Part shown: positions 8,876 to 62,193 of the stretch, piece by piece
Numbering within the stretch: the first letter of the stretch is position 1
Layout: every line of letters starts with the position of its first letter
Assembly: GCF_022811925.1 (NCBI RefSeq)
Contig: NZ_CP065511.1
Location: forward strand, 3,217,501-3,281,500
DNA from: Cytobacillus oceanisediminis
GTDB lineage: Bacteria; Bacillota; Bacilli; Bacillales; Cytobacillaceae
Direction: 5' to 3'
DNA length: 64,000 bases
Made by a program: the position numbers and the translations under genes
Notes under the pieces: model-generated
What the model was told of the DNA's origin: nothing
Database searches by the model: none
What the model saw: only the letters and a program-made list of their open reading frames with translations

Positions 8876-9000
8876 AAACCTGCCCCGTTTGTACAATAAG
8901 AAAAGCCACCTGAGATGGCAGCTGGACCTTAAAGTAATGCACCCTTTAGTTAAATAAGAAAAGGGACGCTTATTCCACAATCGCGCCCGATTGTTGAATA
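8876..9000. repeat. Cluster of three CCC-core palindromic repeats with terminator
   Basis: Cores are CTGCCCC at 8880, GCACCCT at 8939 and GCGCCCG at 8983. The third has arms CTTATTCCACAATC and GATTGTTGAATA with one mismatch. Between the first two lies AAAAGCCACC...TGGCAGCTGG, which on the minus strand is a terminator stem followed by T-rich sequence, downstream of the exporter gene at 9101. Confidence 0.7.
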
Positions 9001-9100
9001 TCCTAATTTAAAATATTTAAGATTATTTTCTGTTCCGATTAACTATATTCTAGAGATTTTTTATAGAACAAAAGCTCATTATACACAAGGATATTCTCTA

Positions 9101-9982
9101 TTAATTGTCCTTCCTAACCCATTTTCTAAAAATATCAGGATTCGAAAATAAAAGTGCTAAAAGAATGATTAATATGCCAATCTTATCTTGCAAAAATAAT
9201 GGATCTTTTAAAATAATATAGCCTAAAATTACACCAATAACCGGGTTAATATAGTTGCTAAAAGAGGCAAATAATGCTCCCTCTTCTTGAATTAAGAGAT
9301 TATACAGCATATAGACAATTCCTGCATGGAATATACCTAAAATGATAATATATAATACTTGTGAATGATTGATATCGATTTGTAATGGCTTTTCAAAAAG
9401 GAATGCCATTGGCAATAAGACAATACTTGCAATCCATAAAACATTTCTCATATGGACCACCGGAGAACCATCTTCTAATTTTTCCATTAGAATTAAAGAC
9501 AATGCAAAACTTATAGCAGCAAGAATGAGCAACACATTACCCAATATATTACCTGAAACGTTCATAATTCCTTGCGTTGGCCACGATAAGATTACAATTC
9601 CTAAAAATCCTAATATTATGCTGACTATTTCAAAGTTGCTAGCTTTCTTTTTGAAGAGCAATACGAAAAATACTAATGTAAAGATTGGGACCATTGCGAT
9701 TAGCATAGATGCAATACTGCTCGATACGTACTTTTGGCCTTGTGCAATAAGAATAAACGGCAATACTACTTCAAAAAGTGCAATCCAAAAATATTTTTTA
9801 GTATTGGTTGTGTAGTTTTTCTTTGATTGAAACAGACTAATCACTGATAAACAAATTGCACCGATCAGTGCTTTAAAAGCAGACAACGAAATGGAACCTG
9901 CATCATTCGTTACTAATTCCACGAAGAAAAATTGAGATCCCCAAATGAGGCTTATGATTAGCAAGAGACTATATTTTTTCAT
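9101..9982 (-). CDS. EamA-family (DMT) transporter
   Basis: A ten-helix permease of the drug/metabolite transporter superfamily, about 293 residues from ATG 9982, which has AAGGGG upstream; the longer open frame to 10024 lacks a ribosome site. Two EamA repeats are visible (about 1-140 and 150-290), beginning with the typical SLIWGSQFFFVEL. Its start overlaps the end of the upstream EamA gene by 14 bases, so the two are translationally coupled. Such proteins often export amino acids or related metabolites. Substrate unknown. Confidence 0.85.
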   Translation of the reverse strand: MKKYSLLLIISLIWGSQFFFVELVTNDAGSISLSAFKALIGAICLSVISLFQSKKNYTTNTKKYFWIALFEVVLPFILIAQGQKYVSSSIASMLIAMVPIFTLVFFVLLFKKKASNFEIVSIILGFLGIVILSWPTQGIMNVSGNILGNVLLILAAISFALSLILMEKLEDGSPVVHMRNVLWIASIVLLPMAFLFEKPLQIDINHSQVLYIIILGIFHAGIVYMLYNLLIQEEGALFASFSNYINPVIGVILGYIILKDPLFLQDKIGILIILLALLFSNPDIFRKWVRKDN

Positions 9983-10832
9983 TTGATTTGCCCCTTGCAC
10001 CAAAATAGTTAGTACCAACAACACCGATGATAATGATAATTGATCCAGCTATATGGTATAAATGAAATTCCTCTTTTAAAAAAATGACCCCTGCTAAAAT
10101 GGTAATGAGCGTAGCAAAATTACTGAAAACACTCATTTTCGATGCGTCTATTTTTGATAAAGCATAGTTGGAAAGATAGGTCGTTCCTAAAGACGATAGG
10201 ATACCTAAATATAAAATGGCAAGAATAAAATCCCAGTGTCCAAAAGGTTGCATAAATTGATGGACTGTTTCGTTCATTACATGGTTTGTCAGTGCCAGTC
10301 CATTAAAAGCTATAAACCCAAACAAGGTCATGAAATATGTGATAGTGAATAACGAATAGCGTTGTGTTAACTTTCTGGTAAATACGTTGTATAGTGAGGC
10401 GGTAAATGCTGAAAGTAAAATTAAACCAGTCCCAAGGAGACTTGTATTTGTGCTCCCTGCCCCGTTCATGTACATAATATAGATCACACCGAGTACAGAT
10501 AAACCAATCGCTATTTTTTGACTACTTGTAGATGTTTCCTTTAAAATGATACTTGCAAAAATTAACGTAAAAATTGGTATTGTTGCTTGAATAATACCAG
10601 CTTCCGATGAAGATGTATGCACTAACCCAAATACTTGAAAAGCAAAAAAGAGTGTCGGATATAAGATGGCTAACAAGGCAATCCGCAGTACATCTTTTTT
10701 TGTTACTTTGATCGGTTCTTTTTTTAACACGAACAACACTGTGGCAGCGATCCATGCAATGGTAAACCGATGAGCCAATGTATCTAACGGTGTTGCAACC
10801 GTTAATGTCACTTTAACAAACATAAATGACAA
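9969..10832 (-). CDS. EamA-family (DMT) transporter, start displaced
   Basis: A second EamA permease (287 residues in the open frame). The frame starts in the middle of the first helix (GLSFMFVKVTL). The upstream bases encode AYIAATIYAIIIGLSFMF with no usable start in frame. A TTG at 10885, behind AAGGGGG, would join this frame if one A were added (MKNRNAYIA). So the true start is probably near 10885 with a one-base loss. It is the first gene of an exporter pair and is divergent from a MocR regulator. Confidence 0.82.
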   Translation of the reverse strand: MSFMFVKVTLTVATPLDTLAHRFTIAWIAATVLFVLKKEPIKVTKKDVLRIALLAILYPTLFFAFQVFGLVHTSSSEAGIIQATIPIFTLIFASIILKETSTSSQKIAIGLSVLGVIYIMYMNGAGSTNTSLLGTGLILLSAFTASLYNVFTRKLTQRYSLFTITYFMTLFGFIAFNGLALTNHVMNETVHQFMQPFGHWDFILAILYLGILSSLGTTYLSNYALSKIDASKMSVFSNFATLITILAGVIFLKEEFHLYHIAGSIIIIIGVVGTNYFGARGKSNEKI

Positions 10833-10967
10833 TCCGATAATGATTGCATAGATGGTTGCTGCGATATATGCATTTCTATTTTCAATTATTTCGATTACCC
10901 CCTTATATTGATCCGGCCGGTACCATTATCGTAAGAGAAAATAATAACCTTTACGATATAAAAAATA

Positions 10968-10991: not shown

Positions 10992-11005
10992 CAAAGAGGT
11001 TTATG

Positions 11006-13658: not shown

Positions 13659-14072
13659 TGTTGACTACTTACCACCTTAGAATTCAAAATTCTCTCAAAA
13701 ATCTTATTTCTCCTTCATTAATTAACCTCCCCCGTTAGTAAAATAATTATAGTTTTACTTTTCTATTAAAATGGCAATAATTCCTCTATAAAATAATATT
13801 TTAGGAGGAATACAATTGCTATTATCAATTGGCATGATTTCTTGCGATGTTAGGGTGTTGTTTTGAAATAAAGTTTGATTAAAACTCACTCAGAACTCTT
13901 TAATCCAAAAGTGCAAAACATCGCGTCTTTTTATAAACATCGTGATTTTATTTCAAATCCACACTATATTCAAGAAATATAACATTTACAATTTTATTCT
14001 TCTTGTGTTATTATATATTAAATTTGTTCCATAAACATCGAACTGATTATTGTTTCAAGGAGGTAGAACTAT
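13659..14072. other. Intergenic region upstream of the ArsR-MFS operon
   Basis: No gene recognised. The segment near 13980-14030 (TTTACA followed by TTATATATT-type boxes) could be the operon promoter, and AAGGAGG at 14060 is the ribosome site of the regulator. Confidence 0.35.
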
Positions 14073-16339: not shown

Positions 16340-16400
16340 AAAAGAATGATCATTTTCTACCTATGTTGTTTAACAATCGCGCCCTTTAATGGAAGATTGT
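16340..16400. repeat. Dispersed repeat shared with 42415-42475
   Basis: GATCATTTTCTACCT followed by TTGTTTAACAATCGCGCCCT recurs near 42431 almost unchanged. It contains a GCGCCCT repeat core at 16379. Confidence 0.6.
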
Positions 16401-16483: not shown

Positions 16484-16650
16484 CTAATCATTTGAATAAC
16501 GTTCAGACAGTTTCTTTTTATGTGACTGAAACACTTCTTCTAGAGGGATATTGTACTTGTTTGCATTCACAATTAAATTACCTAATACATCCCCTAATTC
16601 TTCAGTAACCCTTGTTTATTCTCCTCATAAGGTCCCTTAATTTCATCAGG
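16484..16650 (-). pseudogene. MazG-like nucleotide pyrophosphohydrolase remnant (C-terminal)
   Basis: The minus strand encodes VTEELGDVLGNLIVNANKYN and IPLEEVFQSHKKKLSERYSN to a TAG at 16486-16484. A one-base shift joins it to an upstream PDEIKGPYEENKQG. The EELGDVLGN segment is the metal-binding MazG motif. The remnant stops exactly where the CTGCCCC repeat begins (16652). Confidence 0.65.
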
Positions 16651-16737
16651 CCTGCCCCGTTTGTCAAAGAAGAAAAAGGCTGCCTTTTTTTGCGGCCTGA
16701 TCTTTAAGGAAAGCACCCAGTTAGTTCAATAAGAAAT
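16650..16737. repeat. Paired CCC-core repeats bracketing a terminator
   Basis: Cores CTGCCCC (16652) and GCACCCA (16712). Between them, on the minus strand, CAGGCCGC-type sequence pairs with GCAGCC and runs into T-rich DNA, serving the broken GNAT gene at 16752. Confidence 0.6.
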
Positions 16738-17254: not shown

Positions 17255-17499
17255 TAAATACACCTCTCATAAAAGTATAAGGTGTATATTCCATTTAATT
17301 ACAAATAATCCTTCTTCTTATTAAACTAAACTCCCTCAATAAAAGAAGCGTACATATCCGATTACTCCTGATTTCTTAGATTTTCATAGCTATTTACCTG
17401 CCGGTAAATGGGTTTCAATTGGAGGATAGTAACTGAAAAGGATATATTTGGGCACGCCGAGAAAAATGAGCTACAACCCACTAACCAATCTATTACAAA

Positions 17500-17665
17500 A
17501 ATTGGTGGAGTAGTAAGAATATGACCGCACTGGTAGATGTCCACATATCTCATGGAGGTCAACCCTCCCATGCCTCACAGAGTCTTCGCTCTCAAATTCC
17601 TTCGTCCAACCTTTCCATGAGGTGGATGTCGGCCATGCTGCCCCACAGGGTCCATGCCCGTAATT
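17500..17665 (-). ncRNA. Candidate bridge RNA region of IS1111-group copy C
   Basis: It lies about 90 bases 3' of the transposase stop. Plus-strand blocks CCCTCCCATG, ATTCCTTCGTC and AGGGTC.ATGCCC are shared with 31.1-31.3 kb, while intervening segments differ. IS1111-group elements carry their bridge RNA on this side. Confidence 0.4.
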
Positions 17666-17749
17666 TAGTTGCTTTGCCGACTAATCCGTGCTTCAAATGT
17701 CTCCAAAACTATGAGCCAAGAACTATTTCTAATCTAAACGAAACCAGAA

Positions 17750-19042
17750 TTAAGCGGCCAGTTCTGCCTTCTTTGATCCTGCCAAGTGAGGGATATCTTT
17801 TAACATCTTTTCTTCACTAAATTCAAATTGCTTTTTACTTATACTAAAGAAAATACGAATCAATTTATTACACAAAGCGATAAGGGACTGCATCTTCTTT
17901 AGGGTTGTCTGGCCGTTGTGTAAAGTAAGCATGCAGGGCCTTAAAAGCTGAATTTTTGGCAACGAGAATCATGCAAACCCTAAACAACAGAGCCCTTAGC
18001 TTCTTCCGTCCTCTCTTGGAGATGGTGGTTTTTCCTTATGCTTTCCAGACGTATTTTCCTTCAGACTCAAGCCAGCCAGCTTAATAATTTGTCGGGGGTG
18101 AGTGTACTCACGTAGGTCACCCACTTCCGCAAAGAAACCAGCGACTGTATCTCTTCCAACACCCTTGATCGCTAACATTTGGGCTACACCTGGAATTTCA
18201 TCAAGCAGGTAATCTATTTTTCCGTCCAATTCTTCGAATTCCTTCTGAATCAAATCATATTTAGCCAGAAGAGTTTTCAGCTCCATTTTTGCCATCTCAG
18301 AGCCTTGGCGAAGTCCGATGGACTAACTCGCTGCTTGCTTTAACTCCCGAATCTTATTAGCACCTACACTTCTTTTTACGGATTTTCTTAAATGGATAAG
18401 CAATTCATCTTCTGTGAAATTGGCTATTTCATGCGGTAGAGCATAAAGCCGTAAGAATTGTAATGCAGCCTTGCCCTCCCACTTCTTAAAGACCTTAAGA
18501 AATTCCGGAAAATACCGGTCAATCCAGTTATGCACCTGGCCCTGGACCGTTTGAAGGTCCTCGGCTAAAAGATCGCGTATTTTCTTTGCCACACGGAGTT
18601 CGGCATAAACACCTTGCGGTAGGGTAGGTTCGGCGTATCTTCCGTCCTTGACCAGTTGGGCAATGACTTTGGCATCTTTTACATCATTTTTAGTTGGAGA
18701 ATTATCATCAAGTTCCTTGCTTTTCTTTACGTGCAAGGGATTTACAGCTACAAACTTAATCTCGTTCTCTTTTAAAATATGAGCCAGGTTAAACCAATAA
18801 TGACCTGTTGGCTCCATACCGACAATCACTTTCTCCATACTACGTGCTTTCTTCGTTTCCGAAATCCAATGAAGAAAATGCTCAAAACCTTCTTTTGTAT
18901 TTTCAAAATAACAAGGGGTTCCAAACTCCATTCCCCTGAAATCCTGGGCACGTGCCACATGCTTGAATTTCGCGGTATCCACCCCTATAATCAGGGTGTA
19001 AGGAGTAATTTGAGCAATCTACTTATTCTGGTTATAATTCAT
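17750..19042 (-). pseudogene. IS1111-group transposase with two nonsense codons and two frameshifts
   Basis: ATG 19042 has a CAGGAGGC site. In-frame TAG codons occur at about codon 8 and at 18310-18308, each explained by CAG to TAG. Frameshifts lie near 18035 and 17905. The DEDD region (IIGVDTAKFKHVARAQDFRG, VGMEPTGHYWFNL) and the Tnp_20 domain (KGVGRDTVAGFFAEVGDL, catalytic-serine region TSGKHK) are all recognisable. Inactive as read. Confidence 0.85.
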
Positions 19043-19144
19043 TTTAAAGCCTCCTGGTATTTGAGTAATGTCCTTTTCGCTTGCCGGCTTCAGGACTCTC
19101 TCATTCTACCAAGAGGTTATTTTTTTGTTCAAACTCCATTTTCC

Positions 19145-19255
19145 TTCATTACAGGAATGCTGCCCCTTTTGTTAAAAAATAAAAAGCCGCCTAGTCTGGC
19201 AGCTGATCTTGAGCATATGGACCCTTTAGCTTAAGTACAAATCTTCACAATCTGT
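19145..19255. repeat. Paired CCC-core repeats with terminator, 3' of the Lrp gene
   Basis: Cores CTGCCCC (19160) and GGACCCT (19219). The minus strand reads GCTGCCAGACTAGGCGGC followed by TTTTTATTTTTT, a clean intrinsic terminator for the gene at 19273. The flanking TTACAGGAATGC recurs at 29833 and 62091. Confidence 0.75.
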
Positions 19256-20438: not shown

Positions 20439-20501
20439 TGTTGTTTATAAAGTACAAACCTGCCCCGTTAATTGAATAATTTTTTTACCTATTTGATAGG
20501 T

Positions 20502-21044
20502 CTAATTATCAATCACAATTTCTCCTTCACCATTTGGTATTTCAAAACCATTAAGGTAAGAAGTTAAAATTTCTTCTGAAATAGTGAACGCGTTTGCATC
20601 AAATCGTTTGTTACGTAACTTAAGTCGTTCACGTAAATCATTAGGTTGAACTTTTAAATAAATAAGTTTCCATTTACCCCCAGAATCCTCAATAAGTTTT
20701 TTATATTGGTACCTTCTTGCACGATCCCAAAAACTGAAGTCGATTACCACCTGCTGTTTATCGTGTATTAACTTTATTAAACGATTGCGTAAATTTTTTT
20801 CTGCATCTTTCTTGTATTCCTCAATTTTTTCAATTGGGAAATCAATCCCATAACGACCATTAACAGCCCATATTTCTTCATCAATAGAAAGACGCAAAAA
20901 ACCTTCTTTTTCCAATTTTTTTGAGAAAGTAGTTTTCCCAGAACCAGTCACACCACACATCATCACCACTAATGGGGTTAAATCATCTCGTTCACGATAA
21001 ATCAAGTCAAAATTAAATTTTTCAAACACCCTTACATCCCCCAA
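20502..21044 (-). CDS. P-loop kinase, AAA_33 / zeta-toxin-like
   Basis: A 180-residue protein starting at TTG with AAGGAGGG nine bases upstream. Walker A is CGVTGSGKTTFSKKL (about 30-44). The next strand carries LSIDEEIW, and VVIDFSFWDRARRYQYKKLI fits the family's catalytic and substrate segment, followed by a LID-like RERLKLRNKRFD. Related proteins phosphorylate small molecules or act as zeta-like toxins, but no antitoxin gene is adjacent and the protein is short. A small-molecule kinase, possibly of an antibiotic, is more likely. Confidence 0.8.
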   Translation of the reverse strand: MGDVRVFEKFNFDLIYRERDDLTPLVVMMCGVTGSGKTTFSKKLEKEGFLRLSIDEEIWAVNGRYGIDFPIEKIEEYKKDAEKNLRNRLIKLIHDKQQVVIDFSFWDRARRYQYKKLIEDSGGKWKLIYLKVQPNDLRERLKLRNKRFDANAFTISEEILTSYLNGFEIPNGEGEIVIDN

Positions 21045-21238
21045 TTGGGAATTCCCTCCTTACCCTAAATTAATCCTCAATCGACTTTATGGTAAATGCC
21101 CCTTCCTATATTTAATATATCTCGTCAAGAACCAGCAGGATTATTTTTTAATCGTTCTCTTTTATCTTCAGGCGTTTCATTACCAATAGTTTCTATAGTG
21201 AATATATTCTATATTTTATCGTCTATACCTTTTAAAGC

Positions 21239-21300
21239 TAACCTGCCCCTATAGTTAATAATAAAAAGCCGCCTAGTTTGGCAGCTGGATCTTAAATCGG
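21239..21300. repeat. CCC-core repeat plus terminator, 3' of a DinB gene
   Basis: Core CTGCCCC at 21243. The minus strand gives CAGCTGCCAAACTAGGCGGC and then TTTTTATTATT, near-identical to the copy at 19145-19255. Confidence 0.75.
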
Positions 21301-21354
21301 TTATTATGGTCTTTGTATATTGATTAAACCTACTTACAATAGTGGCTCTAGAAT

Positions 21355-21870
21355 TTAATCAAATAAAGTTTGTCTAGGTTCAGCCATTCCAAATTGTGCC
21401 CATTCTTCTTTTGAAGGACCGTAAATCCCTGGAACACTAAGTCCTGCTTGTCTCATTAGTATAGTCATTTGTCCCCGGTGATGAGTTTGATGTTGGTTTA
21501 AAAATAATAACAGACTTCCCTTTGTCATTTTTGTTCCAAAGAAATCAATTTGTTCCAACAGGGTCTGATCAGTCCAGTGAGTTTCCAAAGCCTCAATTAG
21601 GTTATTTGATGAACTAGTATAGCTTTCAGCAATGAAATTAGCTGAAGATGGAACAGACCAGTCTTCACTTGGAGCTGCAAACCTTAAACCTGCCTGTGAA
21701 CTAATTACTTTAATAGCAGTGACCGTATGCCACGCAATACGCCCTAAAGACCATTGATTTGGTGTGACTTCCTGCTTTAATGATTCATCTGTGAGATTCT
21801 TAAGAACCCTGCTTGTAGCCCCAGCCTCAAATTCCCAGGATTTAAAAAAATCGCTTAAGCTATGATACAT
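21355..21870 (-). CDS. DinB-like four-helix-bundle protein
   Basis: A 171-residue DinB-family protein with GAGAGGAG before the ATG. The metal-binding histidines are in WSLGRIAWHTVTA (about residue 48) and NQHQTHHRGQMTILMR (about 129-140). DinB-fold proteins in Bacillaceae include thiol (bacillithiol) transferases acting on toxic electrophiles. This is one of five in the window and is a monocistronic unit with its own terminator. Confidence 0.85.
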   Translation of the reverse strand: MYHSLSDFFKSWEFEAGATSRVLKNLTDESLKQEVTPNQWSLGRIAWHTVTAIKVISSQAGLRFAAPSEDWSVPSSANFIAESYTSSSNNLIEALETHWTDQTLLEQIDFFGTKMTKGSLLLFLNQHQTHHRGQMTILMRQAGLSVPGIYGPSKEEWAQFGMAEPRQTLFD

Positions 21871-22065
21871 TTTCAGACTCCTCTCAATTTATACTCATAT
21901 TAACATTCTCCCTCTTTATTAAATTACCTCCTCCTTTTTTCTTTAAGTCTGTACCCCAGAAGTTTTGGATTTCCGATCATTAACTGCCCCGTATTTTTAA
22001 TTAACTTAAAAAGTAAAGTACATTATTTTTATACCTGCTAATCAAACTAAGAATGGTGAATTCAA

Positions 22066-22203: not shown

Positions 22204-22222
22204 GAAACTAAGCCTTCTTTAA
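22194..22222 (+). terminator. Intrinsic terminator of the small membrane protein gene
   Basis: GGGCTTAG, a GAAA tetraloop and CTAAGCC, followed by TTCTTT. Confidence 0.8.
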
Positions 22223-22288
22223 CTACTTGCCCCATAGTCGAATAAGAAAATGAGCAGCCGCAGAACTTTTTTTAACCAGCAGCAATCA

Positions 22289-22882: not shown

Positions 22883-23036
22883 AAAATAATTCCTCCGAAA
22901 CACCTGTAATTTTTAATAAATTATTCTGTATTAATTAAAGGAAGTCCTGTATTTTGGAAATTACTGCTTTAACTAACCTGCACCGCCTGTTAAATAAGAA
23001 AAACGTCCCTGCATTTGCGCAGGTACGTTTAAACAA

Positions 23037-23768
23037 TTACTTTTCTGCTGAGATTATTAAGAACATAGGTCTACGGAGTTCATCTTTCATTTTAGGAATA
23101 CTGATTAACATTTCCTCAGAGGGAATAGGTTCCTTAATTGTCCTTATATTAAATCCAGCATTAATTAAGACATTGATATAAGTTGAAAATGTGCGATGGT
23201 ATTTTATAACGTTTTCAGTTAGAAATGTTGTTTCACGTAATCCTTCCAATTGGTAATTGTCAACTGCCCAATGCAAACGATTCCCTTTGTCATCATGATA
23301 CCAATCTTGTTCGTTCCGAGAAGTGAAGATTGGATGTTCAACTGAAAAGACAAAAGAACCTCCAGGCTTTAAACAATCATAGACCTTCTTACAAATTGCT
23401 TCAAAGGACTTAATATAATGAAAAGCCAATGAGCTGATGACAACATCAAATGGAGAGTCTGAAAAATCAATGTCTTCAATTGGCATTTTAATGTATGAAA
23501 TGAAGGAATCATGAGTCATTTCACGAGCTTGTTCAAGCATTTTTTCAGATATATCTACTCCAATAACAGACCTCGCTTGCTGTTCACGAGCAAAACGGCA
23601 ATGCCAACCGAAACCGCATCCCAAATCTAGTACACTTTTATTTCGGAGTTCTGGTAAAAGTTCTTTTAATACATGCCATTCTCCAGCAGCTTCAAGTCCT
23701 TTGACTGAACGTGCCATTTTTTTATATGCAGAAAAGAAATTCACATCATCATACTTGTTTTGCTTCAT
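23037..23768 (-). CDS. Class I SAM-dependent methyltransferase
   Basis: About 243 residues from ATG 23768 (TAGGAGTTGT upstream). The SAM-binding motif I is SVLDLGCGFGWHCRFA (about 46-61). Motif II is VIGVDISEKMLEQA and the post-I motif is PFDVVISSLAFHYI. The C-terminal EHPIFTSRNEQDWYHD region is typical of small Bacillus methyltransferases of unknown substrate. Monocistronic, with a CCC-core repeat (22978) just past the stop. Confidence 0.88.
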   Translation of the reverse strand: MKQNKYDDVNFFSAYKKMARSVKGLEAAGEWHVLKELLPELRNKSVLDLGCGFGWHCRFAREQQARSVIGVDISEKMLEQAREMTHDSFISYIKMPIEDIDFSDSPFDVVISSLAFHYIKSFEAICKKVYDCLKPGGSFVFSVEHPIFTSRNEQDWYHDDKGNRLHWAVDNYQLEGLRETTFLTENVIKYHRTFSTYINVLINAGFNIRTIKEPIPSEEMLISIPKMKDELRRPMFLIISAEK

Positions 23769-23895
23769 TTTATACAACTCCTAAAAATATTAGTTAGCCT
23801 CCTAAAATTAAAACAGCATCTAATTCAGGAGGCTATCTATCTCCTTCTAACCATTTCTTTCACCTCATTAAAAGTTGCACCTAATATAACACAAT

Positions 23896-23975
23896 GCTTC
23901 TTAAACAAACTTGCCCTGTTTGTTTAAGAAAGCAAGCGGTCCTGTATGCTGCTAAGCCTAGCCAAAGCACCCTTT
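23896..23975. repeat. CCC-core repeats, including the best-conserved palindrome
   Basis: TTCTTAAACAAAC (23898-23910) and GTTTGTTTAAGAA (23918-23930) are perfect 13-bp arms around TTGCCCT. A second core GCACCCT follows at 23967, just past the stop of the NUDIX gene. Confidence 0.8.
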
Positions 23976-23994: not shown

Positions 23995-24405
23995 CTATGA
24001 TTGAAAAGTGTAGGCAGAAGACGATTTAAGCAGACCTTCTACACCGTTTGGAAAGTAGGGCATTAATTTATTTGCCCTTTGTAAATCAACCCATTTTATT
24101 TCTGCGATTTCCTCTTCATATCTAATTTCACATTCTCCCTCCAATATATTTGCTTCAAATGTTATAAATAAAGCGTGATGACTTTTCTCCTGAAAAAATG
24201 CTTCATTAACTGCTAAAACATTTCCCGCCTTAATAGTTAGTCCTGTCTCCTCTTCGACTTCACGAACAACAGCTTGTTCTAAACTTTCATCTTTTTCAAC
24301 TGCACCACCAGGAAGTGACCAACCTTGTCCTTTATTATTAACCATTAAAATTTGTTCACTATCTTTGTTGTAAATAAGGGCGTAAACGACATCAACTCTT
24401 AACAT
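23995..24405 (-). CDS. NUDIX hydrolase
   Basis: From ATG 24405 (AGAGGATAAT upstream) the protein is 136 residues. The NUDIX box is complete: GGAVEKDESLEQAVVREVEE then ETGLT (about residues 33-57), giving the G-x5-E-x7-REVEEETGL pattern that binds the metal-pyrophosphate substrate. Likely hydrolyses a nucleoside diphosphate derivative; the specific substrate cannot be read. Single-gene unit between two repeat clusters. Confidence 0.9.
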   Translation of the reverse strand: MLRVDVVYALIYNKDSEQILMVNNKGQGWSLPGGAVEKDESLEQAVVREVEEETGLTIKAGNVLAVNEAFFQEKSHHALFITFEANILEGECEIRYEEEIAEIKWVDLQRANKLMPYFPNGVEGLLKSSSAYTFQS

Positions 24406-24469
24406 ATTATCCTCTTCACCTCTATCTATTGTTTTAGATAGCACTATTAGTAAAAACATATACCTTCTT

Positions 24470-24545
24470 AAACAAACCTGCCCTTTTGCCTAATAAGAAA
24501 AACAGCGATATTCTAAATTGAACGATCGCTGTCGTACCAGGGCTT
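24470..24545. repeat. CCC-core repeat plus terminator
   Basis: Core CTGCCCT at 24478 with left arm TTCTTAAACAAAC. It is followed by AACAGCGATA...CGATCGCTGT, a terminator stem for the minus-strand HAD remnant. Confidence 0.65.
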
Positions 24546-26606: not shown

Positions 26607-26652
26607 AAAGGATTGTTTATTAACCTGATTATTTTCAATTTCTCCATATTTT

Positions 26653-28131
26653 CTACATAGATATTATTTTTGTAGCAACTGTTTGTTGAAATGCCTGATC
26701 ATGCTCAACAATAACCATTGTAGGATGAAATCTTTGAATAAGCTCTTCAATCTGCATTCGCGAATATATATCAATAAAATTTAACGGTTCATCCCAAATA
26801 TATAAATGAGCTTTTTCACATAAACTTTTAGCTATAAGCAGCTTTTTCTTTTGGCCTCCGGAATAATGAGAAATATCTTTCTCAAATTGTATCCGGTCAA
26901 AGTCCATCTTTCGCAAAATGGATTTAAATAGAGTCTCATCAATCTTGTGCTCTTCAATAAAATCCGATAACAGCCCTTTTAAATTAGAGGTATCTTGCTG
27001 GACATAGGAAATGGTGAGTCCTGAACCTGCAGTTATTGAGCCTGTATGCTGAATCGGAGTTCCTAGTATTAGTTTTAAAACACTGCTTTTTCCGCTTCCA
27101 TTCTTGCCATCAAGTACAATTCTGTCACCTTGTTCAACTTTAAAACTAATAGGCTTATTTACTATTTGGCCATCGTACTTAACAGACACATCAGTCAAAG
27201 AAATCAATTCATTGGACTGAAATTCAAATGGTTCTAATTTTAATGATTCGGTTTTTTCTACATTTTTAAGCAGTTTTGATTTTTCCTCAATCGCTTTTTG
27301 CTGCCTTGACTCCAGGCTCTTTGCTCTTTTCATCATCTTTGCTGCTTTATGTCCTACAAACCCCTTGTCCAGCTTAGAGCCCGAATTCGTTGTTCCATTC
27401 TTGGAAGCCTCCACTTGATTAGACCAGCCTGCTGAGCGCTTTGAAGATTGCTTTAATCTCCCAATGTCTTTTTGCAGGCGCTGATTTGCTGCCTCTTGGT
27501 GTTCTTGCTCCCGATCAAAATTTAGCTTCCATGAAGAATAGTTACCACTCTGTACTTCAATATTTGCTCTATTTATAGATAAGATATGGTCAACGCATCC
27601 ATCCAAAAAGATTCTATCATGTGAAATTAAAATAAACCCTTTTTTCTTCCTTAGATAATCAGAGACCACCTTTCGTGCATCAGTATCCAGATGATTGGTT
27701 GGCTCATCAATCAAAAGAAATTGACCCTCATTCAAAAATAGTGCAGCAAGCAATACCTTTGTTTGTTCTCCATTTGATAATGTATTAAATGTGCGGTACA
27801 TGACCTCTGCATCAACATTCAAATAGGATATTTCACGAAAAAATTCCCAATCTTCTGCCTGGGGGCAAATCTCTTCTAAGATTTCATGCGTATACTTATT
27901 TTTATCCGAAACCGGATAAGGGAAATAATTAAATTCTACCGAAGAGATGATTGTCCCGCTATACTCATAATTTCCTAGTAACAAATTAAAAAATGTTGTT
28001 TTACCGCGTCCATTCCTGCCAATAAAACCTAGTTTCCAATCCGTATCTATTTGAAAGTTTACACCTTCAAAAATATTGTCAAAGCTGCCTAGATAAGAAA
28101 AAGTTAAGTCTTGAACCTTTATCATCGACAT
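26653..28131 (-). CDS. ABC-F ribosomal protection protein, Lsa type
   Basis: 492 residues from ATG 28131, whose AAAGGAGG site lies in a hairpin. Two ATPase domains without membrane helices: Walker A GFIGRNGRGKTTFF (about 35-48), signature LSNGEQTK, Walker B FLLIDEPTNHLD, linker, then second Walker A LDGKNGSGKSS, signature YSGGQKKK and IWDEPLNFID. ABC-F proteins of this group displace lincosamide, pleuromutilin or streptogramin A drugs from the ribosome. The sequence resembles Lsa proteins, but the spectrum is inference. A leader peptide and attenuator precede it. Confidence 0.88.
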   Translation of the reverse strand: MSMIKVQDLTFSYLGSFDNIFEGVNFQIDTDWKLGFIGRNGRGKTTFFNLLLGNYEYSGTIISSVEFNYFPYPVSDKNKYTHEILEEICPQAEDWEFFREISYLNVDAEVMYRTFNTLSNGEQTKVLLAALFLNEGQFLLIDEPTNHLDTDARKVVSDYLRKKKGFILISHDRIFLDGCVDHILSINRANIEVQSGNYSSWKLNFDREQEHQEAANQRLQKDIGRLKQSSKRSAGWSNQVEASKNGTTNSGSKLDKGFVGHKAAKMMKRAKSLESRQQKAIEEKSKLLKNVEKTESLKLEPFEFQSNELISLTDVSVKYDGQIVNKPISFKVEQGDRIVLDGKNGSGKSSVLKLILGTPIQHTGSITAGSGLTISYVQQDTSNLKGLLSDFIEEHKIDETLFKSILRKMDFDRIQFEKDISHYSGGQKKKLLIAKSLCEKAHLYIWDEPLNFIDIYSRMQIEELIQRFHPTMVIVEHDQAFQQTVATKIISM

Positions 28132-28138
28132 AATTATT

Positions 28139-28280
28139 CCTCCTTTGTATATCAATTCATTCTTCTTTTTATACAAAGTCGGTATACCCATCTATTTTAC
28201 TAGTTCTCCGTATAAGTTTGATGGATACTAACGACTTATACGGAGTCTACATGCGTAACAATTGTGTCTGAATTGCTCAT
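28139..28280 (-). promoter_or_regulatory. Translational attenuator upstream of the ABC-F gene
   Basis: On the minus strand four segments occur in order: CTCCGTATAAGT (28245-28234, overlapping the leader stop codon), ACTTATACGGAG (28217-28206), CTTTGTATAA (28178-28169) and TATACAAAGGAGG (28151-28139, containing the ribosome site). Segments 1:2 (12 bp) and 3:4 (9 bp) pair perfectly, hiding the ribosome site. Segments 2:3 can pair instead through TTATAC/GTATAA. This is the logic of erm- and cat-type drug-induced attenuation. Confidence 0.75.
28236..28280 (-). CDS. 14-residue leader peptide of the ABC-F gene
   Basis: ATG 28280 follows AAAGGAG at eight bases and encodes MSNSDTIVTHVDSV. Its last codons lie in the first arm of the attenuator, so a ribosome stalled here would open that hairpin. 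Confidence 0.65.
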   Translation of the reverse strand: MSNSDTIVTHVDSV

Positions 28281-28510
28281 TTCTCGGTCTCCTTTATTAT
28301 TTAGATTAGATTTTATACGATCTATCTTATCATTGGGAGTATAAAAATCCTCCCATTAAATTATTAGGAAGGATTAGTCTTTAATATTAAATAAGCTCCT
28401 ATTTTGCCAGCGGAATCATGACAAATAAAAGTTGGTTTATAAAAATGGATAGACTAACCCCTATATTTTGTAGTTTGAAGTTATTCATTTCAAATAAAAA
28501 TATAGATTAG

Positions 28511-28655
28511 TTAATCATTGTCCATCCATCAGTCCTCTCATAAATCGTATCCTTATAGTAACAATTTTTTTCCCGGAATACAATATCACAATAGTTCATT
28601 TCGTCTAGATTCCCATTTTTCCCCAACATCACATAGGTGACATCTTCTTCAATTA
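28511..28655 (-). pseudogene. Remnant of an unrecognised protein (C-terminal)
   Basis: The minus frame reads IEEDVTYVMLGKNGNLDEMN, then CDIVFREKNCYYKDTIYERT and DGWTMIN to a TAA at 28513-28511. It lacks a start and breaks exactly at a CCGCCCC repeat core (28658). Family not recognised. Confidence 0.4.
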
Positions 28656-28732
28656 ACCCGCCCCGTTAGTTAAGTAAGAAAAAAAGCCGTCATTTAGCAG
28701 CGGGATGTAAATGTAATGCACCCTGTAGTTTT
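28650..28732. repeat. Paired CCC-core repeats bracketing a terminator
   Basis: Cores CCGCCCC (28658) and GCACCCT (28718), with AAAAAAAGCCGTCATTTAGCAGC between. It lies directly after the stop of the minus-strand hydrolase gene. Confidence 0.7.
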
Positions 28733-29727: not shown

Positions 29728-29890
29728 AACCTGGCCCTTTACGTTGAAAAAAAGCCGCCATTTGGCAGCTGGATGTTAAAGTAATGCACCCTATAGTTTA
29801 AGTGTATTTCTTCACAAAGTTATTCTTTTATTACAGGAATGCTGCCCCTTTTGTTTAACAAAAAAAGCTGCCTGATTAGCAGCCCGTTCG
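29728..29890. repeat. Triple CCC-core repeat with two terminator stems
   Basis: Cores TGGCCCT (29732), GCACCCT (29786) and CTGCCCC (29842). Between the first two is AAAAGCCGCCATTTGGCAGC; after the third is AAAAAAAGCTGCCTGATTAG then CAGCC. The spacer TTCTTTTATTACAGGAATGC recurs at 62082. Confidence 0.75.
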
Positions 29891-29892: not shown

Positions 29893-30387
29893 TTAATAAG
29901 TCATTAATTTGTTCATATTCTTTTCCATTACAACTGTATTAACAGGGTAACCATTAGGATTAGTTACAATTTCTTCTTTAGTAACAATATAACCCATATT
30001 CTCGTATAAACTTATATTTTTAGATAATGAAGCACGAACTCGACATTTCATTTTCTTTAGTCCATTTTCATTGGAGTATTTTTCAAGCCACAATAATACT
30101 GCCCTTGCAATCCCTTGTCCTCTTGAGTCAGGTGCTACAGATAGTCTTGAAAAATATATTGAATCTTTTTTAATAGTAAATCTCAAGGAACCTTTTGGTT
30201 CTCCATTTACGAAACACAATAAGGCTTTTTCTGTGCCGTTCTTAAGTTCATTAACTAAAGTATCTAATGATTCATCTGTTGCACTAGAAGGGACTTCAAG
30301 GTATCGATATTCTTCAAACGCCTCTAGCATAAGTTTATGAACTATATGTACTTCCTCCACATTTGCTAGCCTTATTTCTATATTCAT
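29893..30387 (-). CDS. GNAT N-acetyltransferase
   Basis: 164 residues from ATG 30387 (GGGAGGGAGTTAT upstream). The GNAT acetyl-CoA loop is SRLSVAPDSRGQGIARAVLL (about 86-105, with the R/Q-x-x-G-x-A motif as RGQGIA). The final strand is ISLYENMGYIVTKEE. Substrate unknown. One of three GNAT genes in the window and the only one whose reading frame is intact. Confidence 0.9.
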   Translation of the reverse strand: MNIEIRLANVEEVHIVHKLMLEAFEEYRYLEVPSSATDESLDTLVNELKNGTEKALLCFVNGEPKGSLRFTIKKDSIYFSRLSVAPDSRGQGIARAVLLWLEKYSNENGLKKMKCRVRASLSKNISLYENMGYIVTKEEIVTNPNGYPVNTVVMEKNMNKLMTY

Positions 30388-30402
30388 ATAACTCCCTCCC
30401 AA

Positions 30403-42523: not shown

Positions 42524-42700
42524 ACTTTTCTTGTGCTTTTTGTCTTCAGAATAGTAGTTGAATACCGAATAGTTAGTGTAAGCATAATATAAATTGAGAC
42601 AGCCACTGCACAGATAATTGCTACACCCCACAGTGCTGCTTTCCAAGCCTCAGTCCACTGTGAATGCCGACGGCTAGGGTTACACTTTTCTGGTCGAACC
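42524..42700 (-). pseudogene. C-terminal remnant of a membrane protein
   Basis: The minus frame reads HSQWTEAWKAALWGVAIICA and VAVSIYIMLTLTIRYSTTIL, then a basic tail and a stop at 42524. One transmembrane helix is clear, but there is no start. Family not recognised. Confidence 0.35.
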
Positions 42701-42712
42701 CAGAACCTCCAA

Positions 42713-43096
42713 TTAGTGCTTATTGTACATAATGCCTAGGATGTTCCCAAAGGGATCGACCACGGAAGCAGTGATGAACCCCTCGCCACGCTCTGTGGGT
42801 GCCTCGTACTCTTTCGCTCCCATAGACAGCAGCTTCTTGAAAGTTCCTGTTACATCGTCGACGTGCCAGTACACTATAGCGCCGGCAAGGCCGGTCGCTG
42901 AACCATCGGGCGCGTAGCTGCTATCGATCAGGCCGAGCTCGTGCTGATAGTCGCCGATGCGAAACTCGGCATATCCTGGACGTTCGAAGTATGGTTCGAT
43001 GCCCAATACCTCGGTGTACCACTTCTTTGCCGCTGTTAGATCATCCGTCCAAAAACTAACTGTGGTGAGTCCTCGTAATGTCTGTGTATCACTCAT
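42713..43096 (-). CDS. VOC-family protein of higher GC content
   Basis: 127 residues from ATG 43096 (AAGGAGGAAAGCGATT upstream). One VOC domain: TTVSFWTDDLTAAKKWYTEV, DYQHELGLIDSSYAPDGS, and GFITASVVDPFGNILGIMYN with the usual C-terminal Glu replaced. Much of the gene is clearly richer in GC and in G/C third positions than its neighbours (for example GCCGGCAAGGCCGG near 42872), pointing to transfer from a high-GC donor. Substrate unknown. Confidence 0.85.
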   Translation of the reverse strand: MSDTQTLRGLTTVSFWTDDLTAAKKWYTEVLGIEPYFERPGYAEFRIGDYQHELGLIDSSYAPDGSATGLAGAIVYWHVDDVTGTFKKLLSMGAKEYEAPTERGEGFITASVVDPFGNILGIMYNKH

Positions 43097-43267
43097 AATC
43101 GCTTTCCTCCTTAATGTTGAGTAGTATTTCTTGATACTCAACTAAATAACATCTTCTGGTTAACTTCGATTTATTTACGATTAATCCCTTCTCTTATTCA
43201 ACAAATATGGCCCTTTAACGCAAAAAGTACGCTATCCTTGCTCCGGAATGCGCCCTCTAATTGAAGT

Positions 43268-45585: not shown

Positions 45586-45867
45586 GATTCTCTCCCCTTT
45601 GTTATTTGGTAGACGTAAAGAAGGTGAAATAACATTGGTAATTTTCTGACTTTTATAGTCTAAATAAAACAAAGAGTGATGTAAATGCGTCGATTTATTT
45701 AATTTCCATATTATTGATGTCTAAGGTAAACGATCACTTTTTCCACAATCTGGCCCTTTAATTGAATAATTGTGTATGACAAAACTGATGTGCGGATCTA
45801 TGCATAGAAAAATTGTGACCCCTTGTAGCTAAAGAAGCACTTCAAAATAAGCATTAATTCATAAAAC
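45586..45867. other. Intergenic stretch with a CCC-core repeat
   Basis: Core TGGCCCT at 45751 with right arm TTAATTGAATAATTG. No gene recognised. Confidence 0.45.
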
Positions 45868-56233: not shown

Positions 56234-56766
56234 TTGTGGTCTAAAGTTATCGGAGGGAGGCATAAAGAATTTGATTGGAGCAGCCTCATCGTTTCTCTAT
56301 GCGAGTCACGGATAACCATTTACAACGTTAAGGAAATTCCAAAATAAAAAGCCCTATTCTCTTAAAATGAGAATGGGGCTTTTATCGACACTGAAAAAAG
56401 ATAGAAATATTGTAGCGTTTATGGTCATTAAAGCTAACTCTATAAGGCACACAGCCCTGGCATAATGTCATAATGAAAGTAAGTTGTACTCTAGAAAATC
56501 CAAAGGAATGTCTCAATTTTGAAGACATTCCTTTTTCTAACTAGAAATATTTAGTTCCCCTTCTTAAATAAAAGCGCCCGACTGTTGAACAATGAAATAT
56601 GCGAAAGATCGCTCTGCAAATACGTTCTAATTTATTTGACTAACACACCCGTTTAGCCTCCATAAAGCAGGAAAATCACCCGCTTTACCATAGAGAATGA
56701 AAAGGGCTTCACACCGTCAATACTGCTTCTACGGCTGGGCGAAGAAGGTCGCTGCATTATGGTGCT
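56234..56766. other. Intergenic stretch with two terminators and one CCC-core repeat
   Basis: Terminator 1 at 56345-56384: AAAAGCCCTATTCTC/GAGAATGGGGCTTTT. Terminator 2 at 56500-56540: AAAGGAATGTCT/AGACATTCCTTTTT. A GCGCCCG core lies at 56574 with right arm ACTGTTGAACAATG. No gene seen. Confidence 0.7.
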
Positions 56767-57264: not shown

Positions 57265-57691
57265 ACAACCAATCTTCCTCACTGTATAGTGTAATCTTTC
57301 AAAGTTCTAATTCTATCTAACATGGCAGGGTAATCTGAAATTTGAGGGTGACGATAACAATAACCCTCAATCAATTTCGAAAAAAGCCATTCATACGCAT
57401 AAAACAACCGTCATTATCGACAGTCGGCCATATAATGAAATACTCCATTCTTTTATTTTGAGAATACATCAAAACCATGATCACTATGACTTATTCGGCT
57501 CATCCTGCTTTTATTCCTTCATCATGACAAATAATAAAAACACCCTTCTTCAGAAAAAGAGAATTTAATTTTGTTCCTAATCAATTTTAATAATGAAAAG
57601 TCCTTTTTAATAAACCTGCCCCTTGAGTACATTCCTTCGTAAAGAAGAAAGCCGATTATCCTACTTAGAAAAAGGAAAATCGGCTATTTCT
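57265..57691. other. Intergenic stretch with one CCC-core repeat
   Basis: Core CTGCCCC at 57616. After it, AAAGCCGATTATCC and AAAATCGGCTATTT form a terminator stem for the minus-strand gene above. No gene recognised. Confidence 0.55.
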
Positions 57692-59570: not shown

Positions 59571-60319
59571 TGGTATCACTCCCAAAAATGAAATTTCAAT
59601 GGACCCTCTAGATAAGGATAGAGGGCATACAAAAATTGTTATCTACAACTTTATATTATTGATGGAATACAGTAATCCTTCATAAGTGTGGACTTTTCTC
59701 ATCCAAAAGGCTGATAAATAGACCCTAAAATTTTCTTGCTTATCAACCTGAAGAACGGATGGAGTCCCTTACCGATGAAGGAATAAATTGTTGAATTTGT
59801 TCTTCCCATAACGATTTTGACTGATAACCTATTAACATAATAATTTTAAATAGTAAAAACCTTTTTAAAGCCATACTCTCCAATTTGAATTTTTTCCACA
59901 GAGAAATAGGGCTTAGGTGAAGGCAAATAAGCGTTAATCCTTCTTAACGTTAAATATGATATAATTAAAAAAATGCCCATTCCCATGTATACCAAGGGTT
60001 TGAGCAATTTTTTTAAATGCGTTAAATTGTATTATACGAATACATGTTCCTTTATCGTTAGAACCTAGCCTGGCATTTAAGCCAGGCTTTCTAAATGTTT
60101 AGTATGTGAACGCTGACAAAAAATTCTGCCTTTTCATTCTTAGCAACATTCTTCCCTCGGAGAAACGATATCTTCTCTTCAAGTTAGGAAGAAAATATCT
60201 GGTTCCCTTCTAGTAACTGTATTAGCTTCCTCGATTGTTGAAGATCATTGCAACACTTTTATTCAACAAAAGCACCCTTTACTTTAAGTACATTACTTCA
60301 CAATCTTTCTTTAGGATAT
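59571..60319. other. Long intergenic region with a direct repeat and a CCC-core site
   Basis: It holds the second direct-repeat copy (59929-60041), a hairpin AGCCTGGCATTTAAGCCAGGCT (about 60066-60088) followed by TTCTAAATG, and a GCACCCT core at 60272. Nothing coding was recognised. Confidence 0.6.
59929..60041. repeat. Direct repeat, copy 2 (copy 1 at 45.87 kb)
   Basis: Shares AGCGTTAATCCTTCTTAACG, AAATATGATATAA, AATGCCCA.TCCCAT.TATA and CCAAGGGTTT with copy 1, same orientation, 14.06 kb away. Confidence 0.9.
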
Positions 60320-60985
60320 TTATTTAACTATGCTGGTCATTAAAATTTCTTTTATCTGATCAATACTATGAACAATGTAAGTAGGATTAAACTCACTTAA
60401 TTCTTCAAAGGATCCGTATCCATACGTTACTCCAATGGAATCAATCCCAACATTATTTGCACCAATAATATCGTGCTTACGATCTCCCATCATAATAAAG
60501 TTATCAAGCGTATAATTTTTGTGCTTATCAAGTATGTATTGAATAATTTCAGTTTTAGATGTTCTTGTGCCATCAAGATTACTTCCAACAACGAGATCGA
60601 AATAGTGGTCAATATTAAAATATTTAAGAATCTGTTCTGAAAATACCGTGGGTTTTGAAGTTGCAACGGTTAAGGTATATTGTTGTTCCTTTAATGATTT
60701 TAAAAATGGTGAAAGATTGGAATATAACTCATTCTCGAACATACCCCTTTGCTTAAATCGTTCCCTATAAAAATCAATAGCTTTTTGTGATTTCTCCTCA
60801 TTAAAACCGTAGTATTCAGAAAATGAAACCTGAAGTGGTGGTCCAATAAAACATTCAAGTTTATCAAGATTAGTTTCAATAATGCCCAATTTTTCTAATG
60901 CATATTGAACAGATTTAGTAATACCGACCTTCGGATCCGAAAGTGTGCCGTCTAAATCAAATAAAATTATTTTGTATTCACCCAT
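60320..60985 (-). CDS. HAD-family phosphatase (phosphoglycolate phosphatase/PpaX type)
   Basis: 221 residues with GGGAGGTATTTTTCT before the ATG. HAD subfamily IA: motif I ILFDLDGTLSDPKVG (Asp 10/12), cap domain (about 18-90), motif II VATSKP, motif III Lys in TSKTEII, motif IV IMMGDRKHDIIGANN. Likely hydrolyses a small phosphate ester such as phosphoglycolate or a nucleotide. Monocistronic between repeats. Confidence 0.9.
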   Translation of the reverse strand: MGEYKIILFDLDGTLSDPKVGITKSVQYALEKLGIIETNLDKLECFIGPPLQVSFSEYYGFNEEKSQKAIDFYRERFKQRGMFENELYSNLSPFLKSLKEQQYTLTVATSKPTVFSEQILKYFNIDHYFDLVVGSNLDGTRTSKTEIIQYILDKHKNYTLDNFIMMGDRKHDIIGANNVGIDSIGVTYGYGSFEELSEFNPTYIVHSIDQIKEILMTSIVK

Positions 60986-61259
60986 AGAAAAATACCTCCC
61001 GAATCATTAAAAGCAACCCAATTTTATCATAAAAAATTTAGAATAATTCAAAAAAAATAAACATACTAAACTAATCTGTCCCTTTAGTCGAAGAAAAAAA
61101 AGCTGCCGACCCACACGGGATCTTCAACTCTTGCACCCTATTGTTTAAGTGAAAATCTTTACAATATTTGTGTGGGAGCATACAAAATTGACGCCTTCTT
61201 CCTAAAGAAAAACGCCGTATTGCTGAAGAATTAAAAAATCTTAAAAAGACTTCATAACC
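60986..61259. repeat. Paired CCC-core repeats with terminator
   Basis: Cores CTGTCCC (61076) and GCACCCT (61133). Between them AAAAAAAAGCTGCCGACC and CGGGATC resemble the usual terminator half. Lies after the racemase gene stop. Confidence 0.6.
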
Positions 61260-61949
61260 CTACTTTAAGGACATATTTACAGATTCAAAAGCATGTATGT
61301 AGGTTGTGTCAAATAGAGGAACATCAGAATCCTCCTGCTTTACCAATAATCCAATTTCTGTACAGCCTAGTATAATCCCTTTAGCACCAGATTCGATTAA
61401 ACCATGGATAACTTTTTTATAATAATCCCTTGATTCTTGATGAATCTTACCCAAACATAACTCTTCGTAAATAACCTTGTTTACAGTCTCTCTTTCATTG
61501 TCATTTGGCACAATAACTTGTATACCGTTAAACTCCAAGCGTGATTTATAAAAATCCTGCTCCATTGTGTACCTTGTGCCTAGTAACCCGACAGAATTAA
61601 TTCCTTTCTCTTTAATTTGGGCTGGTGTTGCATCTGCGATATGTAAAATGGGGATATTAATTTTCGACTGGATATCACCTAAAACTTTGTGCATCGTATT
61701 AGTACAAATGATAATAAAGTCAGCCCCTCCCTTTTCCAAAGAACGCGCAGCATTACCTAACACTTCACCGGCCTTTCCCCAGGCGCCTTCTGATTGGTAA
61801 CGTTCAATTTCATGAAAATCGACACTATATAAAAGACATTTCGCTGAATGTAATCCCCCTAATCTTCTTTTAACCTCTTCATTGATAATCCGATAATATT
61901 CAACAGAAGATTCCCAACTCATTCCGCCAATAAGACCAATAACCTTCAT
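61260..61949 (-). CDS. Aspartate/glutamate racemase-family protein
   Basis: 229 residues from ATG 61949 (GGAGAGGATAAA upstream). Two-domain Asp/Glu racemase fold with the paired catalytic cysteines in IIICTNTMHKV (first Cys near 82) and KGIILGCTEIGLLV (second near 193). N-terminal MKVIGLIGGMSWESSVEYYR is the family start. It interconverts L- and D-amino acids, probably broad-specificity (RacX/YgeA-like). D-amino acids can modulate peptidoglycan and spore biology. Confidence 0.9.
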   Translation of the reverse strand: MKVIGLIGGMSWESSVEYYRIINEEVKRRLGGLHSAKCLLYSVDFHEIERYQSEGAWGKAGEVLGNAARSLEKGGADFIIICTNTMHKVLGDIQSKINIPILHIADATPAQIKEKGINSVGLLGTRYTMEQDFYKSRLEFNGIQVIVPNDNERETVNKVIYEELCLGKIHQESRDYYKKVIHGLIESGAKGIILGCTEIGLLVKQEDSDVPLFDTTYIHAFESVNMSLK

Positions 61950-62193
61950 TTTATCCTCTCCATTATCCGTTTTTCTCTTCATGATTAGCTTCGATTAACC
62001 TACAAACAATTCTTTTTTTATTCAACTAAATGGCCCATGAGTTTAAGTACATTTATTTACAAAGCAGTCCTTTTTACACTTCCTTTTATTACAGGAATGC
62101 TCTGGGCAATTACCTCGACCAAAAAGGGCCTTATCAATTAGAAAAAAGTAAAATTAAATTTTCATTAAATATGCCAATTTACTTTTACGAATA
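61950..62193. other. Intergenic stretch with a CCC-core repeat
   Basis: Core TGGCCCA at 62031 followed by GAGTTTAAGTACATTT and TTTTATTACAGGAATGC, the same spacer as at 29795-29841. No gene. Confidence 0.5.

Follow-up and report, generated by a model that had tools for sequence, protein, structure and literature searches.

A stretch of 64,000 nucleotides from the genome of Cytobacillus oceanisediminis (contig NZ_CP065511.1, positions 3,217,501 to 3,281,500; here called the window) is punctuated by copies of one oriented palindromic repeat, and raises the question of whether these copies mark places where genes are gained and exchanged or simply the ends of transcripts. The first-pass annotation of the window, made from the letters alone, favoured a cassette-like gene-capture system in a Firmicute, with a terminator-associated repeat family as the conservative alternative. 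Gene capture is supported by the exchange of gene units at the repeat cores and by a tyrosine recombinase encoded in the same genomic island, and from sequence comparison we put at about 0.86 the probability that the Bacillaceae and their relatives have an integron-like gene-cassette system whose recombination sites are these repeats.

The repeat family is real, stands far above chance and has one orientation. A profile of 98 rows from elsewhere in the data, free of window rows (row selection having started from a window-trained profile), recovers 28 of the 39 places that the first-pass annotation listed when the threshold is 6 bits and 25 when it is 8 bits; a dinucleotide-shuffled window (20 shuffles) gives on average 0.7 and 0.15 matches at these thresholds. 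At 6 bits or more there are 33 minus-strand matches and one on the plus strand. All 39 places were checked in the sequence, and the pattern holds, with the count of "about 39" slightly generous: firm copies number 25–33. Six listed places score 1.5–5.9 bits (12562, 13124, 25557, 29786, 42460 and 60272) and five have no profile match (19219, 23967, 28718, 43253 and 61133), the cores of these five reading GGGTCC, GGGTGC or GGGCGC on the minus strand; the eleven are either weaker copies or minor core types poorly covered by the profile. Three places absent from that list (13746, 31287 and 3522) score at least 8 bits. The exact 10-mer GGGGCAGGTT occurs 27 times in the genome, and its reversed control three times.

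Alignment of 150 sites gives a dyad of about 36 bp, TTCTTATTNAACWAAM-GGGGCAG-KTTWGTTNAANAAGAA, with 13-bp inverted arms around an asymmetric 7-bp spacer whose GGG is near-invariant and whose minor forms are GGGTGC, GGGCGC and GGGCCA. Covariation between the arms is absent in these sites: the W/W pair counts are TA 53, AT 35, AA 32 and TT 28, and no palindrome pair reaches a mutual information z score above 1.7. Independent variation of the arms means that no fold is conserved in the site, and a hairpin or RNA reading of the repeat was rejected for this lack of covariation; such independence is what a protein-bound duplex site built from two independent halves would show.

The sites are concentrated in two parts of the genome. 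A sequence-only model of 30 window copies (R1) has 131 genome matches at E ≤ 5, with 119 in two 140-kb islands, which make up 5.2% of the main contig (C1), and 12 elsewhere. Island 1 (C1:866001-1006000) has 53 plus-strand and 4 minus-strand matches and island 2 (C1:3195001-3335000), which holds the window, has 59 minus-strand and 3 plus-strand matches; each of the seven minority-strand calls is a second, opposite-strand reading of a palindromic place. The GC skew (the imbalance of G and C) is +0.11 in island 1 and −0.105 in island 2, so the leading strand is probably the one along which both arrays run. Between the islands, at C1:2588252, lies a dif-like site with one mismatch to what we take to be the Bacillus dif motif; the genome has no further dif-like site within three mismatches, and this single one is unlike the array sites. 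Copies spread genome-wide, in both orientations and at fixed positions, had been named at the outset as evidence against gene capture; the copies instead occupy two islands, with one orientation in each.

These sites delimit gene units that turn up again, next to different neighbours, in other islands, species and genera. Unit exchange with breakpoints inside the core, which the first-pass annotation proposed to seek between strains, is found between species, not between strains of one species. Comparison of 24 array loci (three of 27, with fewer than three sites, were left out) yielded 236 shared segments of 200–8000 bp; self-matches less than 3 kb apart and segments outside this size range were excluded, two syntenic pieces of genomes G019 and G020 were kept, and the segments are not independent, related ones such as those of the integrase being counted repeatedly. 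Left segment ends lie at −20 to +30 of a core in 109 of 459 cases (23.7%, versus 2.4% for random positions) and right ends in 147 of 461 (31.9% versus 2.3%), an enrichment of 10–14 fold. All four ends lie at −45 to +35 of a core in nine segments, each between different genomes (nine genomes).

The point of exchange can be narrowed further with a linkage map of 354 sites that score at least 12 bits and carry GGG. In pairs of sites sharing the upstream unit only (45 after thinning, from 30 families) an excess of identity extends as far as spacer position +6, is absent at +7 and +8, and is small and scattered beyond; pairs sharing the downstream unit only (30, from 27 families) have excess identity from about +4 to +6 onward. 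These comparisons place the crossover inside the 7-bp spacer, in the interval from +3 to +7. Within the genome, paralogous units start or end in cores, the starts of two pairs coinciding exactly with the core GGG (Table 1). Exchange at the core is well supported by the sequence comparisons.

The ABC-F-like gene of the window illustrates the pattern. It is found at 84–93% DNA identity in loci L003–L016, in other species, mostly of other genera, with other neighbours. On the 3' side of this block the shared sequence ends at a site core in L003, L004, L007 and L010, and L006, L008, L009 and L011 run on together past that point. At the 5' edge of a 3.5-kb block common to L006, L007, L009 and L010 there is an R1 site in L010 and one 20–50 bp outside the edge in L007; none is called there in L006 and L009. 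Directly before the gene, and inside the block common to other genera, lies a match to ncr1575 (Rfam 'Bacillus sRNA'; Table 1), possibly the 5' leader of the ABC-F-like gene or an attenuator for it. Units of a 20-kb array of G020 are likewise found singly and scattered in G017, G032, G034 and G009, many of them from site to site. The arrays of G019 and G020 are 99.4–99.6% identical apart from a 2.4-kb difference; we considered it as a unit gain and rejected it, the insertion lying between sites with an apparent 9-bp duplication, not at a site (L107/L108 versus L109/L110).

The first-pass annotation saw no integrase in the window, and PF00589 indeed has no match there. The tyrosine recombinase that it proposed to look for near an array is present in island 2, 31 kb beyond the window. 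The genome has 11 tyrosine recombinase matches, three of them inside the islands, and the nearest intact PF00589 match is a Xer-like gene of 284 amino acids (intA; C1:3312292-3313143, window coordinates 94,792-95,643) facing against island 2. Its relative in island 1 is frameshifted, faces with the island and ends just before a site, and a gene of a second type (intB; C1:3301708, L122 1504-2103, minus strand) lies broken in island 2. The catalytic residues R, K, HxxR, H and Y are present in the intA sequence. Relatives of intA, at about 280 amino acids, carry the Pfam catalytic and N-terminal core-binding domains, and two further Xer-like proteins of the genome (L112 and L113), probably XerC and XerD, fall outside the intA clade (support 97/100).

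The relatives of intA were sorted from a tree into three classes, named by us. Class I (about 72–99% identity) is oriented against the sites around it: this holds for 162 of the 167 sites near 22 copies of at least 72% identity, and the five exceptions all surround one 73% copy (L205). A site lies 62–77 bp before residue 1 in ten of the 22 copies, and may simply be the integrase unit's own end. Of 19 aligned upstream stretches, 13 keep their sequence from genus to genus as far as a recognisable core and diverge beyond it; in the remaining six, which include this genome (G000), the core is decayed or missing. Class II comprises eight copies, some broken, that are co-oriented with a site starting 21–25 bp after the last codon. 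A class-I gene and its end sites form a site-bounded unit of about 1 kb. This unit is 97.5% identical over 990 bp between G163 and G152, which belong to two genera and share no other sequence in the compared stretches of up to 20 kb, and 95.8% identical over 975 bp between G002 and G003, where otherwise only repeats shorter than 80 bp are common to the compared stretches; a 1.9-kb unit that includes a hydrolase gene is present in G000, L192, L194 and L195. The idea of an attI as a special site is weakened by the integrase being itself a site-bounded unit. Plasmid pSP10-266k of Sporosarcina psychrophila (L224) has an array with a class-I integrase in the same layout; this array also carries an IS110 element and merA/merR, NUDIX and GNAT genes. 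No relative at 60% identity or more turned up in the phage collection.

Sites and recombinase are both widespread. R1 matches are found in all 36 genomes of the genus at E ≤ 0.01, in 187 of 193 genomes of the family, and in 72 of 299 genomes of the class at E ≤ 0.001, where most have between one and three, but two from outside the family reach at least 21 and at least 19. The per-genome counts level off near 33 in the 193-genome search and at 21 in the class search, so the genus counts were used for the correlation. Relatives of intA occur at E ≤ 1e-50 in 13 of the 36 genus genomes, most copies lying among sites, and at E ≤ 1e-70 in 82 of the 193 family genomes and 19 of 25 genera; 1450 proteins match at E ≤ 1e-30, and the 120 listed include those of Neobacillus, Oceanobacillus, Viridibacillus, Peribacillus and others. 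Within the genus, genomes that carry the gene (12, not counting G006 with its 40% relative) have a mean of 49.5 sites, against 16.9 in the other 24 (Mann-Whitney p = 1.1e-4, not corrected for kinship). Many genomes keep arrays with no detected recombinase of the intA clade.

In the mechanism that we propose, a cassette would consist of the right arm of one site, often one gene (or the integrase), and the left arm with the core of the next, and some cassettes would perhaps be a terminator only. The Xer-like recombinase, encoded in the arrays on a unit of about 1 kb with its gene usually turned against the array, would bind both arms of the double-stranded site and carry out the strand exchange across the spacer, where mismatches outside the common GGG would be tolerated; the asymmetry of the spacer would oblige all cassettes to take the same orientation. 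The scheme may further involve excised circles, transfer between cells and cassette expression. We infer that a recombinase of the intA clade carries out the exchange from its position, its orientation and its co-occurrence with the sites, all of the evidence being comparative.

Several observations count against this proposal. Most segment ends (76% of left and 68% of right) are away from cores, and just nine of the 236 segments have all ends at cores. The ABC-F unit of the window has no recognisable site at its 3' edge, the sole indel between the near-identical G019 and G020 arrays is not at a site, and some inter-site intervals are 8–17 kb long with 8–15 open reading frames. Twenty-three of the 36 genus genomes have no intA match at E ≤ 1e-50, one more (G006) has only the 40% relative, with no sites around it, and the array loci of G007, G026, G027 and G034 match neither intA nor intB. 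At the integrase loci L147 and L192, 20 kb of sequence contains no site at E < 0.1. The C. oceanisediminis genome itself has a decayed site next to its intact integrase, a frameshift in the island-1 copy and a third gene that is broken, so its own arrays and recombinase copies may be inactive.

The alternative that survives best keeps the exchange of cassettes at the sites and assigns it to another enzyme, host XerC/XerD or a recombinase not seen here, with the intA clade as one more cassette gene. The array-rich genomes with no detected intA fit this, as does the movement of intA as a site-bounded unit, and the dif modules of Acinetobacter are held to be Xer-driven (PMC12907356). Against it, the genome's single-copy dif-like site does not resemble the array sites, most close intA relatives face against the sites and ten of 22 have one shortly upstream, site number goes with the presence of intA, and the clade is separate from the likely XerC and XerD; we consider another enzyme unlikely. 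Variable genomic islands are common, and homologous recombination within one, with the repeats as passive short homologies, would suit the majority of segment ends that lie away from cores. Two sites share only about 36 degenerate bases, however, and the ends are enriched 10–14 fold at cores and map within the 7-bp spacer, which leaves this explanation with a very small chance.

A terminator-associated repeat family that ends minus-strand transcription and has no part in gene movement is already contradicted. The open reading frame (at least 80 amino acids) preceding a site usually shares its strand (32/42 and 35/42 in the two islands), and hairpins are present: seven close pairs of sites, 54–60 bp from core to core, were folded, and three enclose a hairpin with a T-run (8880/8939, z −3.4; 19160/19219, z −2.2; 29732/29786, z −3.1), with no clear hairpin in the other four (16652/16712, 23911/23967, 28658/28718 and 61076/61133; z −0.24 to −1.63). 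A terminator scan of 8800-28790 gave 20 terminators, with 12.2 expected, picking up hairpins with T-runs beside sites (8923-8904, 19204-19185 and 21286-21267) and, in one case, the palindromic site 23893-23931 itself. The conservative alternative is thus right that some close pairs enclose a terminator-like hairpin, but it leaves the breakpoints unexplained: where hairpin and T-run are present they lie between paired sites and not in the repeat, crossovers map to the spacer, the repeats are confined to two islands and their arms do not covary. Pieces of 60–130 bp similar to the close pairs recur in other arrays, and the pairs are possibly gene-less terminator mini-cassettes. Least credible is a miniature inverted-repeat transposable element or a repetitive extragenic palindromic (REP-like) element transposing into intergenic regions, for which short palindromes in many copies with IS110 elements at the same sites would speak, but each half of a site goes with a different unit and the two separate at the spacer, so that no movement of the whole repeat was seen (empty sites with target duplications were not searched for), and site density is bound to the islands.

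The IS110-family elements of the window have a relation to the sites of their own. The element at 17316..19207 has two copies, at 95.3% and 97.8% identity, in the two islands, and that at 30961..32790 has four further copies, at 98.8–99.2% identity, in the examined parts of the genome; its five copies, spread over both islands, each split a recombination site. Two repeats, one of 1.83 kb, were tried as duplicated cassettes and rejected, both being IS110 elements sitting in sites. A guide RNA of the 30961..32790 element matching the site would be expected.

Table 1. Sites, units and genes of the window (positions in window coordinates).
Feature	Position	Strand	Remarks
Recombination site, core GGGGCAG	8866..8902	-	R1 match; 28.9 bits (profile free of window rows)
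Recombination site, core GGGTGC	8928..8960	-	terminator-like hairpin between this site and 8866..8902
Recombination site, core GGGCGC	8967..9000	-
Recombination site	13711..13747	-	16.8 bits; not in first-pass list
Recombination site, core GGGCGC	16364..16396	-
Recombination site, core GGGGCAG	16637..16674	-
IS110-family element	17316..19207	-	one end continues a site; transposase in pieces 18323-18982, 17996-18295
Site half	19145..19182	-	at edge of IS110 element 17316..19207
Recombination site	20451..20480	-
Unit gene, AAA (kinase-like) protein	20502..21044	-	between sites 20451 and 21227
Recombination site	21227..21264	-
DinB-gene unit	21238..21978	-	88.7% paralogue in other island; similarity ends in a site at both edges of window copy, one edge of other copy
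Recombination site	22211..22248	-
Recombination site	22961..23000	-
Unit gene, methyltransferase	23037..23777	-	between sites 22961 and 23893
Recombination site	23893..23931	-	arms a near-perfect palindrome
Unit gene, NUDIX hydrolase	23995..24459	-	between sites 23893 and 24462
Recombination site	24462..24499	-
ABC-F-like ATPase gene and ncr1575 leader	26625..28584	-	gene 26653-28191; putative leader 28341-28551
Recombination site	28641..28680	-	36.0 bits
Recombination site	29826..29864	-
Unit gene, GNAT acetyltransferase	29893..30402	-	between sites 29826 and 30583
Recombination site	30583..30621	-	36.2 bits
IS110-family element	30961..32790	-	sits within a site; two overlapping transposase frames, 31384-32037, 32019-32657
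Left part of split site	32760..32788	-	split by IS110 element 30961..32790
Recombination site	37709..37748	-	end of unit 37721-39159 common to island 1 (92.1%)
VOC-gene unit	42602..43213	-	87% paralogue in island 1; identity starts exactly at core GGG
Recombination site, core GGGCCA	43190..43227	-
Recombination site, core GGGCCA	45735..45770	-
Recombination site, core GGGCGC	56558..56593	-	end of DinB-gene unit 56559-57306, which has a 96.8% paralogue elsewhere in island 2
Recombination site	57599..57629	-
Recombination site, core GGGTGC	60256..60291	-
Recombination site	61062..61098	-
Asp/Glu racemase-gene unit	61241..62036	-	96.2% paralogue elsewhere in island 2; identity starts exactly at core GGG, opposite end not at a site
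Recombination site, core GGGCCA	62014..62050	-

Two further repeats lie in the window: a tandem array of a 52-bp unit (8.2 copies, 22289-22712) adjoining a recombination site, and a 59-bp repeat (45864-45922 and 59925-59983, 88% identical) unrelated to the sites.

The system works like an integron but by the defining tests is not one, its integrase not being IntI and its sites not attC. As in integrons, arrays of many single-gene units have one type of site in one orientation, the units are common to several genera and the tyrosine recombinase gene mostly faces against the array; one-orientation arrays exchanged at their sites are present here, with many genes in several of the intervals. An attC is a folded single strand with a GTT-type core, whereas the sites here are dyads with the core GGG(G)CAG and no conserved fold. 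The IntI model TIGR02249 scores 88.3 and 89.5 bits against a cut-off of 265 (508.6 for an IntI1 control), and the IntI-specific insert is absent from the Xer-like recombinase; none of the 193 family genomes has an IntI match at E ≤ 1e-60 or above the cut-off, a search in which no control genome matched and which does not prove absence. The integrase is moreover itself a site-bounded unit here, in contrast to the integron, and arrays with no detected intA-clade recombinase resemble the integrase-less arrays known as CALIN (clusters of attC sites lacking integron-integrases). IS110-type elements hit the sites as IS1111 elements target attC, the latter according to the title of Post & Hall 2009 (cited in PMC11187229).

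The dif (pdif) modules of Acinetobacter share with the present arrays genes flanked by Xer-type dyad sites and clustered in islands. Module types alternate in dif modules, whereas the arrays here have one orientation and a recombinase clade of their own, and their sites are unlike the single dif-like site of the genome and not variants of a chromosomal dif. Dif modules are described as XerC/XerD-driven and held to move by site-specific recombination (PMC12907356), and insertion sequences as targeting dif-module sites (PMC10132070). The simple tyrosine recombinases of the Xer group (PMC8138268) resemble the recombinase here in their size of about 280 amino acids and in their catalytic and N-terminal core-binding domains; the recombinase here belongs to a separate clade tied to cassette arrays. 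In the open-licence literature we found no description of a Bacillota cassette system or of such a function for a Xer-group recombinase. We lean towards the view that cassettes were invented a second time, as an independent Bacillota analogue of the integron with its own Xer-derived clade, double-stranded mismatch-tolerant sites, terminator-only mini-cassettes and a recombinase that is itself a cassette, so that any array could be recharged by gaining the integrase unit; such a system would be one of the main routes by which soil Bacillaceae and their kin exchange accessory genes.

Complete integrons are extremely rare in Firmicutes, which the authors of IntegronFinder 2.0 call intriguing (PMC9024848). 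If our interpretation is correct, a separate cassette system would partly answer why Firmicutes nearly lack integrons, and would explain the spread of single genes (methyltransferases, NUDIX, DinB, GNAT, ABC-F and others) among the Bacillaceae; mobile genes could then be found by their sites. It would also make available a compact recombinase whose short site allows mismatches in the spacer, and would offer a case in which the convergent evolution of gene capture can be tested.

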